Assembly: GCA_027080775.1 (NCBI GenBank)
Contig: JALWPV010000070.1
Location: forward strand, 1 to 46,338
DNA length: 46,338 nucleotides
From: Acidilobaceae archaeon
Lineage (GTDB): Archaea > Thermoproteota > Thermoprotei_A > Sulfolobales > Acidilobaceae
Direction of reading: 5' to 3'
Position numbers and translations under genes: made by a program. This document shows, piece by piece, positions 36,520-46,018 of this stretch. The number at the start of each line of letters is the position of its first letter. The stretch's first letter is position 1. Below the pieces are notes generated by a model. It had not been told where the DNA came from. It saw only the letters and a program-made list of their open reading frames with translations, and did not search any database.

Positions 36520-37616
36520 CTATGCTTCCCCCCCACCCCCCTCCCGGGCCTTCCTCTTCCAGGCCCTCGGGTAGAGGCCCGGCTCCATTACGACCCTCTT
36601 CGGCTTGAACGCTATGCCCCTCCTCTCCTCCATGACCCTCTCGCTGCTCATCTCGGCCGTGGCTAGGGCTATGAGCTCCCCCTTCAGGGTTAGTAGGGCC
36701 ACGGTGTCCCCGGGCTTGATGCCCTCGTGGAGCCTCGCGACGCCTGGCACCGCTAGGGAGGCCCCGTGGACTATGCTCTCCACGGCGGTGTCCCTCACGA
36801 CGACCTTGGGTAGGTGGCATATGCTGAACTCCCCGGGGAGCACGACCCTCCTGAGGAGGTCGTCCTTCCCCTCCTCCCTCAGCCTGTAGAGGGCCTCAGC
36901 GACGTCCTGTAGCCTGACGAGGTTGCGGTCCTCATGGAAGGGGCCCGTGCGCGTCCTCCTAAGCTCCCTCATGTGGGCCCCCACGCCCAGCACGAGTCCC
37001 ACGTCCCAGCAGAGCTTCCTCATGTATGTCCCAGCCTCGCACGCCACCCTGAGGAGGGCGTAGCGCCCCGTGTACTCTATCAGCTCTATCTCGTCTATCC
37101 TCTTCACGCGGAGACTCCTCTTCACGCTGCTCCTCACCGGAGGCCTCTGGTATATCCTGCCCGTGAAGCTTTCCAGCACCTCCCTGAGCCTCTCCTCCTC
37201 CACGGGCGCGTGGAGCTGCATGACGCACACGTACTCCTTGTTGGAGTGGACAACGCTACCCACGACCCTGGTCATCCTCTGGAGTGCAACGGGCAGGACA
37301 CCGGTGACCTTGGGGTATCCCCGCCCCCCGCCTAGGGGCTGGGGGGCTCTAGGGTCCCCCCGTGCCCCGCCCGTTGCACCCCGAACATCCTCTTGATCCA
37401 CGCCACGACCTCGTGGCTAGTGGGCCCTGGGGGCTTGTCTAGGTTTATGACGCCGTACTCTATGTACTTGGCCAGAGGCCTCTCCCTCGGGAGCCACCCG
37501 TACCTAGGGTCGGTGGGCTCGTCTATCTTGGTTAGCCACCTCCTATTGAAGCCGCAGAACTCGTCCAGCTCCCTGATGAACCTAGCGCCCTCGGCCGTGT
37601 AGTCCCTCTCTCCCAT
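36520..37616 (-). CDS. cbf5: tRNA/rRNA pseudouridine synthase Cbf5, split by an intron
   Basis: Catalytic subunit of the H/ACA guide RNP. Read as one gene in two exons (37616-37349 and 37316-36520) the product is 354 residues, normal for archaeal Cbf5. Exon 1 ends in QRAGHGGTL plus the first base of the next codon; exon 2 begins with the other two bases and [11 protein letters not shown]. Joined, they give the invariant GTLDPKVTG with catalytic Asp90. The C-terminal PUA domain ([17 protein letters not shown]...[11 protein letters not shown]) is intact. ATG 37616 has GGGAGG upstream; GTG 37631 is less likely. Without splicing, exon 1 would stop at a TAG inside the intron. Confidence 0.9.
37317..37348 (-). 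other. archaeal bulge-helix-bulge intron in cbf5 (32 nt)
   Basis: Removing these 32 bases restores the Cbf5 frame exactly at GHGGTL-D-PKVTG. The RNA folds as a bulge-helix-bulge substrate of the tRNA-splicing endonuclease: a 4-bp central helix (CCCU of exon 1 with GGGG of the intron), 3-nt bulges AGA and AUA each cut after the second base, a 7-bp inner helix (GCCCCCC with GGGGGGC), and an outer GGG/CCC helix, with one A/C mismatch next to it. Introns in this gene and near this site are known from Aeropyrum and Sulfolobus. Confidence 0.9.
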
Positions 37617-37697
37617 TAATCCCTCCCACACCCCGCTATGCGTGGCGGGTTAATTTAGCTGGACCCCCACGAGCCCCCCGGAGCAGTATCCCGGGGG

Positions 37698-38726: not shown

Positions 38727-39994
38727 TTGCTTGGGAGTGTTAGCTTCAGAATCGAGGGCTTCAAGAGCATTGATAAGCTAAGGGCGGAGCTAGCCCCCCT
38801 GACAGTATTCGTCGGGCACCCAGCTAGCGGTAAAAGCAATATCATAGAGGCACTAGAGCTTATAGGATACGTGTTTAAGGCTGTAGTAGAGGCCCCGGCC
38901 GGCGAGCATGGTGAGCCGCTGGATCCCTCCTCGCTCGGCGCTCTCAACGATTATGTGAGGGCTCTGATATGCCATGACCTTCTCAATAGGCTTACAGGCG
39001 CCGCCAATGGGTTAGCGTCCCTGGGCCAGCAGGAGGCGAGGTTTAGGTGTGGTAGGAGCCCCGATCGCTTAGTCATAGAGTATCGCGTGGGAACCACGCT
39101 TATTGCTGAGGTAAAGGCGCCTCTAGCGGCGCCGCGTGCAAGACTTGTTGAAGCACCCGGCGCGCTCCCCAGGGATGTGGATCAACTCGTCAGGATTCTC
39201 TTGAACCTATCCATGATAGAGAAATCCTCCGGTAAGGGGCCAGTTTTGGATAGGAAGATCGAGGGCGTGGGGAAGCTTCCTGCGGCTGAGGGTACCCTAC
39301 TAGCCCCTAGACTCTACAGCTTCGATAGAATGAATATCCTCTCGAATATAATAAACGGGTTAACCGACTCCCTCTACCCCCTATCATACCTCGACGAGAA
39401 GGCTAGAAACATGGCCTGGCTCCTCTATAGGAATCAGAGGGTTCTAGATGCCGTGAACGATGTACTCAGTCGTATTAGCGGCGTGACAATCTCGCCCCTC
39501 AGTAGCGGCAAGCTGGCGTTTTATGATGGTAAGAGGGAGGTTGGCCCCGTTAGCGTTAGCGATTCCGTGGTACGTATGGCCTATAGCCTCACGGCCCTGC
39601 TGGCGGCTTCCCCCACGGAGTATGATGGGGTGAAGGCTATCCCCCTGGTCATGCTAGAGGAGCCCGAGTCCCACGTCTACCCAATCGCCTTCACCAGCCT
39701 GGTTGACGCAGTCTTCAACGCCATCGAGAGGGGGTCTACGTGGCCGTCACCACCCACAGCGGCCGCCTCGCACAGCTCCTATGGGAGAACGCTGTCAAGC
39801 GGGGCGTGGAGGTACTGGTGTACTACACGGCGAGGAAGCCCGAGGGCCCAACCAGGCTCTACCGCATAGACCTCGAGAGGCTCTCCAGGGAGCTCCTCGA
39901 CATGGATGATGTCATAAGGCAGCCCCTCGACATGATAGATGAGTACCTACAGAAGGGCATCATGAGGGAGGCCTGGGAAGCCAGCGCAGGGTGA
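38727..39994 (+). pseudogene. SMC/RecF-like AAA ATPase (AAA_15/AAA_21 type), frameshifted
   Basis: An ATPase of the overcoming-lysogenization-defect/AAA_15 type. Walker A is VGHPASGKSN (29-38); the Walker B region is IPLVMLEEPESHVYPI at about residue 310, followed by the family's His switch. The first frame ends its sensible sequence at NAIERG (about 39733), and the next frame continues with VYVAVTTHSGRLAQLLWENA to a TGA at 39992-39994. One more G in the G5 run at 39730-39734 would join them into a protein of about 423 residues. TTG start at 38727. Codons up to about 39600 are less GC-rich than neighbours, suggesting transfer. It is a pseudogene, a programmed -1 site or a sequence error. Confidence 0.7.
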
Positions 39995-43796: not shown

Positions 43797-43803
43797 CCGA
43801 GCA

Positions 43804-46009
43804 CATACCCTACAAAGGGAATTGCATCCTCCATAAGCTCCTTGTTGCCGAGCGAGTCCTCCTCGAACGCATACCCTACAAAGGGAATTGCATCGCATCG
43901 GCCCCCAGTAAGGTGGTAGTAACGCCCTGTAGCGCGGCATACCCTACAAAGGGAATTGCATCGCAAGCAGCTTCTCCGGGTCCCATTCCCCATAATTCTT
44001 TCATACCCTACAAAGGGAATTGCATCGGAAGATCAGCTATACCGACACCAACGGTAACACTGTTTCATACCCTACAAAGGGAATTGCATCCTTGGCAAGC
44101 TGGTAGGCCTCCCCAACGCTAGCACCGCATACCCTACAAAGGGAATTGCATCGCCAGGGATGGCCTGCTGGTGCTCAGGGGCGTTCGCATCCTGCATACC
44201 CTACAAAGGGAATTGCATCCATAGGCTTCGGCTGTACTGCCTAGGCTCAGATTTACCATACCCTACAAAGGGAATTGCATCTGGTACTGGTAGAGTATGC
44301 TGGCCGCGTGCTCCAGGCATACCCTACAAAGGGAATTGCATCGTATCCGGCCCTTAGAGACCGGCCTGAGCCTCTTCTTTGGGCATACCCTACAAAGGGA
44401 ATTGCATCGCAGGAGCGCCGCGTCGGCGGGGACGTGATAGACAGGCATACCCTACAAAGGGAATTGCATCAGGATATGCAGTGTATCCGATGACGGTAGC
44501 AGTGATCACGTCATACCCTACAAAGGGAATTGCATCCTGAAGGTGCAGGACTACATAGTGCCCATTATAGTGGCGCCATACCCTACAAAGGGAATTGCAT
44601 CCTTGCTTATCTCGATGGCTATGGGGCCGCCGAAGCCCACGGCATACCCTACAAAGGGAATTGCATCCTGCAGCACCTTGGAGTGGTCGTTTGACACTAT
44701 AGCATACCCTACAAAGGGAATTGCATGCACGCTCCGGGTCATGGGTGTCGAAGGTATCGGGGGAGGCCATACCCTACAAAGGGAATTGCATGCCGCACAG
44801 CAGCAATTAGCATCCCCGTCATACTCTGATACTACATACCCTACAAAGGGAATTGCATGAGGCTAAACTGCATCGGCAAGCCAGAAGCCATAGAGATAGC
44901 ATACCCTACAAAGGGAATTGCATGTACCAGGAGATAGAGTCCACCCCAGCGATCCTAGAGGCATACCCTACAAAGGGAATTGCATGCTCGATAGTATTAA
45001 CTGGGGGTTTCCACATTGGTATCCATACCCTACAAAGGGAATTGCATGTGTGATATGCTGGAGAACAGCGAGGACATCTTCATATACGCGGGCATACCCT
45101 ACAAAGGGAATTGCATGCACGTAGTCGTCCACGCCGTCGAAGTACCAGTCGTAGAGCATACCCTACAAAGGGAATTGCATGTTGTATATGACATGCTAGG
45201 GCTAAGCAAGTACGTTGGAGCCATACCCTACAAAGGGAATTGCATGTGGCCCAGGAGATAATGTTCGCCTACGCCAAGATGGCTAGCATACCCTACAAAG
45301 GGAATTGCATGCTTTATCATGTTGGGCGGCACGCCGAGGGCCTCGGCTCATACCCTACAAAGGGAATTGCATGGCCAATGCCTTCGCGGCTTCCTCGACA
45401 ACCTCATTCTTGCATACCCTACAAAGGGAATTGCATGCAGACCAGGTCCCTGCCCAGCTCTGAGCCCTGGTAGGCTACATACCCTACAAAGGGAATTGCA
45501 TGTCACACACCCAATATAGACTCCCTGTAACACATATTTAAGCATACCCTACAAAGGGAATTGCATGCTCCATGAAGTACCTGCGGAGGCGCCTGGTGAG
45601 CTCCTCCATACCCTACAAAGGGAATTGCATGACCGTGGAGTCCTACGTGTCGGAGGCCCAGCGGTTCCTGGCATACCCTACAAAGGGAATTGCATGGTAG
45701 CCTCGGTGGACATTGCGGTACCCCACCGTATCTAACATACCCTACAAAGGGAATTGCATGGCCGCCCTAGCCAACCCATACACCCAGGACATGCTACTGC
45801 ATACCCTACAAAGGGAATTGCATGGGTGCCCTGCGAGGCGCCCCTGCTCGGCGTCGAGGACATACCCTACAAAGGGAATTGCATGCACCATGCCCTACCC
45901 CCTCTCGAGCAACGCCAACGTGATCATACCCTACAAAGGGAATTGCATGCACTCTGACCGAGGAGGAGATAGCGGCCGCGGAGGAGAGCATACCCTACAA
46001 AGGGAATTG
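43804..46009 (+). CRISPR. CRISPR array, 35 repeats (last truncated), 34 spacers
   Basis: The 24-base repeat core starts CATACCCTACAAAGGG and ends AATTGCAT, with a 25th base that is C in repeats 1-14 (43804 to 44667) and G in repeats 15-34 (44703 to 45949). The core is identical in all full copies. Spacers are 35-44 bases. Repeat 35 (45989-46009) loses its 3' end, as distal ends do. Leader at left and the ATTG-A/C-type 3' end give plus-strand transcription. The repeat has a short CCCT/AGGG palindrome and resembles crenarchaeal type I-A/III repeats. No cas genes are present, so type is inferred. Confidence 0.99.
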
Positions 46010-46018
46010 GTGAGTGAG

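Follow-up and report, generated by a model that had tools for sequence, protein, structure and literature searches.

The cbf5 gene on the minus strand of the window, the whole 46,338-nt stretch of Acidilobaceae archaeon DNA analyzed here, is interrupted by 32 nucleotides that almost certainly constitute a member of the crenarchaeal family of cbf5 pre-mRNA introns. This reading draws on the disrupted frame, the single copy of the gene, a relaxed bulge-helix-bulge (BHB) structure, a position and phase matching those of the experimentally spliced introns of Aeropyrum, Sulfolobus and others, and a genome that encodes EndA alpha, EndA beta and RtcB. The cbf5 pre-mRNA intron of Desulfurococcales and Sulfolobales has been described previously (Watanabe 2002; Yoshinari 2006; Yokobori 2009, PMC2738675), as the initial annotation had correctly stated for Aeropyrum and Sulfolobus, and a 2020 paper considers crenarchaeotal cbf5 the only BHB mRNA intron reported earlier (PMC7714728). 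Its conserved borders and covarying stem reveal homology to the published cbf5 introns, and the predicted intron of the window is a further member of this known set, in one more species. What looks new is the breadth of its distribution, in that many archaeal families outside the two reported orders carry an intron at this very site; openly searchable full texts, which comprise few subscription papers and no bioRxiv preprints, contained no report of cbf5 introns outside Desulfurococcales and Sulfolobales.

Frame, junction and fold of the interrupted cbf5 gene

The cbf5 gene spans positions 36520-37631 and is interrupted at 37317-37348, with the unspliced frame broken and coding resumed in another frame past the insert, and annotation pipelines would call such a gene broken. 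The initial annotation had proposed, without giving a strand, that removal of 32 bases repairs this frameshift, and excising exactly 37317-37348 (AGCCCCCCAGCCCCTAGGCGGGGGGCGGGGAT) does restore GHGGTLDPKVTG and a full-length Cbf5 on the minus strand, in a 370-codon frame (359 residues after removal) with zero internal stops. The spliced product is identified as Cbf5 by the NCBIfam profiles PRK04270.1 and TIGR00425 (equivalog), with 450.8 and 424.4 bits, well clear of the cut-offs (242 for the 450.8 match), while the TruB profile stays under its own cut-off. The Cbf5 profile match starts at residue 31 and runs onward, and the alignment to Pyrococcus Cbf5 structures covers 315 residues (E 3.5e-111) and is gap-free at the junction. 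A second TruB/Cbf5 locus, which the initial annotation had named as counter-evidence, is absent from this 99.89%-complete genome, leaving cbf5 as a single-copy gene.

Exon 1 (37349..37631, minus strand) starts at GTG 37631 or ATG 37616 and ends with the G of the catalytic Asp codon; exon 2 (36520..37316, minus strand) begins with the AC of that codon and encodes the rest of the catalytic domain, the PUA domain and the stop. Joining CTA-G to AC-CCC yields GTL-G|AC-PKVTG, which puts the intron between the first and second base of the catalytic Asp codon, the boundary reported for the published introns (Yokobori 2009, PMC2738675). A cut shifted by one base, GA|C, would generate an identical protein, and the protein alone cannot choose between the two; we adopted G|AC because published cleavage occurs between the second and third bulge nucleotides (PMC2738675). 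The G|AC split given initially is thus upheld by the cleavage rule rather than by the protein. The numbering of the catalytic residue as Asp90 applies if translation starts at ATG 37616 but becomes residue 95 if it starts at GTG 37631.

The 32-nt BHB intron (AGCCCCCCAGCCCCUAGGCGGGGGGCGGGGAU; 37317..37348, minus strand), delineated by frame restoration, its BHB fold and same-site introns with a covarying stem in relatives, is embedded in the sense-strand arrangement GGGGGGA-CCCU-AGA-GCCCCCC-A-GCC...GGC-GGGGGGC-GGGG-AUA-CCCC. On this minus strand, the central helix pairs exonic CCCU (37351..37354; codons ACC-CTA) with intronic GGGG (37319..37322) through three C-G pairs and one U.G pair. It is bordered by the 5' bulge AGA (37348..37350; AGA in 89/99 relatives), with a cut expected after AG, and by the 3' bulge AUA (37316..37318; ATA, AGA, AAA or ACA in 84/99 relatives), with a cut expected after AU. 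The inner helix comprises 7 bp between GCCCCCC (37341..37347) and GGGGGGC (37323..37329). These elements agree with the near-ideal BHB proposed initially, but the outer helix is weak, with an A.C mismatch beside the bulge followed by three G-C pairs; because of this mismatch, we classify the motif as a relaxed rather than a near-ideal BHB, as for most published cbf5 introns.

Folded in ViennaRNA with flanks of 17 nt, the sequence adopts the core BHB as its minimum free energy structure at 37 C (-36.0 kcal/mol, ensemble probability 0.71), and the core lies within the best fold at 37, 75 and 90 C. With longer flanks, however, another fold wins by 3.4 kcal/mol at 37 C, where the core BHB has a probability of 0.016; at 75 C the core BHB returns as the best fold, with a probability of 0.34, and at 90 C it is likewise part of the best fold. 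Furthermore, the window contains 53 BHB motifs of equal quality, where first-order Markov sequences yield 20-27 for each 46-kb strand, and BHB geometry by itself is about at chance level in this GC-rich window. The BHB shape alone is therefore no evidence, and the case is carried by the frame and by the comparison among relatives; for the same reason, hairpin significance was rejected as proof of an intron.

The flanking exons (37349-37408 and 37255-37314) can also pair with each other, forming a near-perfect stem of about 20 bp (GUGCAACGGGC/GCCCGUUGCAC) here and in the nearest relatives. This exon-exon stem has a z of -6.3 against synonymous-codon shuffles for this genome, with much of it imposed by the encoded residues (RAGHGG against TGVLPVA). 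Its pairing reaches 0.58 in intronless genes as well, and clear compensatory changes were not found among the compared cbf5 genes.

Same-site introns within and beyond the order

The proof of the intron is comparative, resting on same-site introns, covarying stems and fixed exon codons. Cbf5 was detected in 191/197 genomes of the order, and sampling the gene from 119 genomes of the same order and 27 named relatives yielded 124 distinct junctions, 99 of which carry an insert at exactly the same codon and phase; one of the 25 intronless junctions (L149, a Baldrarchaeum) is from outside the order. The introns measure 13-57 nt (median 32), compared to published sizes of 16-44 bp (PMC2738675), and their lengths show no bias to multiples of three (28/41/30 by remainder, n=99). 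The central helix pairs are retained in 97-99 of the 99 intron-bearing junctions. Inner-helix pairs 1-6 are paired in 98/99, 98/99, 96/98, 92/96, 86/95 and 69/89 junctions, compared to maxima of 88, 88, 78, 77, 61 and 48 in partner shuffles that ignore relatedness, and each of them is kept by compensatory change across 4-6 standard pair types. Among the same 99 junctions, the outer helix presents no covariation beyond coding constraint. The Thr-Leu codons preceding the junction are ACC-CTA in 89/99 intron-bearing but only 1/25 intronless genes (Fisher 1e-16, kinship ignored).

Absence of the intron extends to every sampled member of families f6 and f7, the latter including L137, a named member of the Pyrodictiaceae, and to part of families f9 and f5. 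Three intronless junctions (L036, L047 and L048, in G099, G122 and G133) belong to one genus of the window's own family whose other members keep the intron; these are recent losses, absent from the 2009 list.

Screening 250 genomes from the phylum uncovered many cbf5 genes outside the order with an open frame starting at exon 2. In 56 of 80 outside-order junctions, picked partly by this sign and hence not a measure of prevalence, an insert of 13-76 nt occupies the same G|AY site, and the remaining 24 have none. The 56 introns span 29 families, 26 of which belong to other classes and 3 to that of the window, with two of the other classes delimited by class searches. Inner pairs 1-4 are paired in 54/56, 50/56, 47/53 and 44/51 of these introns (shuffle maxima 47, 36, 38 and 38), and ACC-CTA is found in 38/56 intron-bearing genes versus 0/24 intronless ones. 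Contamination is an unlikely source, since the proteins share 37-61% identity with that of the window and some of the genes sit on contigs 1.3 and 2.15 Mb long. The intronless outside-order genomes include what we take to be Thermofilum pendens, Caldivirga maquilingensis, Vulcanisaeta distributa and Pyrobaculum aerophilum, in line with the 2009 table. The longest introns, in L181 (G238; 76 nt) and L212 (G411; 67 nt), exceed the published maximum of 44.

According to the 2009 analysis, the common ancestor of Desulfurococcales and Sulfolobales acquired the intron, and Pyrodictiaceae and Ignicoccus lost it (PMC2738675). The presence of same-site introns in 26 families outside the class indicates that this conclusion would need revision. 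We consider it reasonably probable that the cbf5 intron is no invention of these orders and predates several class splits of the Thermoproteota (TACK), having been inherited vertically with many losses while fixing the synonymous ACC-CTA codons, which are freed on loss. A quick unrooted cbf5 tree (135 rows, 176 columns) clusters the genes largely by family and requires at least 17 changes of intron state, but its deep forks are weak, with 45/131 open, and this tree alone does not distinguish gain from loss because it is unrooted and weakly resolved at depth. The same distribution might instead, with lower though appreciable likelihood, reflect several independent insertions at a favored site, or movement of cbf5 between lineages, as the number of state changes and the weak forks would allow and as an exon motif, CCCUAG, capable of attracting insertions could explain. 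The grouping by family, however, argues against transfer as the main route, and the position, phase, 5' bulge and central helix common to different classes likewise weigh against this alternative. One old gain is favored because site, phase and structure are identical; if true, few introns in protein-coding genes of prokaryotes could be traced back as far. Its frequent loss points to a dispensable intron and provides a natural experiment on what, if anything, it does.

Splicing machinery and predicted fate of the transcript

In agreement with the expectation of the initial annotation, genes for both the catalytic alpha and the beta subunit of EndA are present in the genome. The alpha subunit (G000:C48:44674-44919, a 183-aa ORF in L003) matches PF01974 (103 bits) and PF02778 (58 bits), with A. 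pernix 3p1z_B as its best match (3.2e-57), and the beta subunit, a 188-aa ORF in L151 that also lies on G000:C48, matches A. pernix 3p1z_A (1.1e-32), placing both closest to the Aeropyrum pernix heterotetramer. The lysine in the DKPSG motif of the alpha subunit aligns with A. pernix residue 44, which we take to lie within the crenarchaea-specific loop, and this lysine is presumably important. An RtcB gene is located on C85. For other genomes, Pfam PF22502 was unusable as a beta-subunit marker, matching only G000, and PF01974 was used in its place. All 18 tested intron-bearing genomes outside the order have a catalytic-type EndA, and 17/18 have two short EndA-type genes. The intronless Thermofilum and Vulcanisaeta likewise present a catalytic-type EndA and two short EndA-type genes, so a two-subunit EndA permits the intron but does not predict it.

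We propose that the cbf5 locus is transcribed and that exonic CCCU pairs with intronic GGGG in the pre-mRNA to form the 4-bp central helix. An (alpha-beta)2 EndA would then cut both 3-nt bulges between their second and third nucleotides (AG|A and AU|A), and RtcB would ligate the exons to generate the GAC (Asp) codon and an active Cbf5, with the excised 32-mer as a by-product. Translation of the unspliced mRNA would shift into a stop, yielding no more than a 99-residue fragment that lacks the catalytic Asp, and presumably only the spliced product would be active. Splicing of this transcript is inferred from its sequence and from spliced cDNAs reported at the same site for A. pernix, S. solfataricus and others (PMC2738675). 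One RNA-modifying enzyme would thereby depend on the tRNA-splicing endonuclease, a dependence for which the initial annotation deemed the exact form of this intron worth documenting; the partners are indeed present here, but the dependence was already stated in 2002-2009 for the same intron position (PMC2738675). A regulatory use tying Cbf5 output to splicing, as proposed by the intron's discoverers, is speculative and unsupported.

The predicted intron shares with those of Desulfurococcales and Sulfolobales the gene, the Asp-codon site, the relaxed BHB, the predicted cuts between bulge positions 2 and 3, and the size class, and differs from them in its new species and in its own stem (GCCCCCC/GGGGGGC). 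With archaeal tRNA and rRNA BHB introns it would share the EndA and RtcB route, differing in its protein-coding context, relaxed motif and very short length.

It is very improbable that Cbf5 is instead made without RNA splicing, by ribosomes that jump the hairpin through translational bypassing or frameshifting. The interruption is a stable hairpin of freely variable length, and cbf5 introns have been annotated elsewhere as translational frameshifts (PMC2738675), but conservation falls on the bulges and on the central helix between exon and intron, neither of which is required for bypassing, and spliced cDNAs are reported for relatives with a same-site insert (PMC2738675). Least probable of all is a decayed pseudogene or an assembly error, since, even though one other frame in the window breaks at a G-run (in an AAA ATPase gene near 39730) and such errors do occur, about 150 relatives carry an insert at this codon and the remaining gene is intact, the sole copy, and found throughout nearly all genomes of the order (191/197).

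Other features of the window

The AAA ATPase gene (PF13175, PF13304; 38727 to about 39990) presents a frame shift near 39730, at a run of five Gs, changing from IERG to EGVYVAVTTHSG. A one-base slip at this run would explain the shift; an error of assembly or sequencing is therefore the probable cause, rather than a second intron. The window also contains a CRISPR-like array at 43799-46013, with 35 repeat copies sharing the core CATACCCTACAAAGGGAATTGCATC/G at a spacing of 60-69 nt, and the last base of the core changes from C to G along the array.
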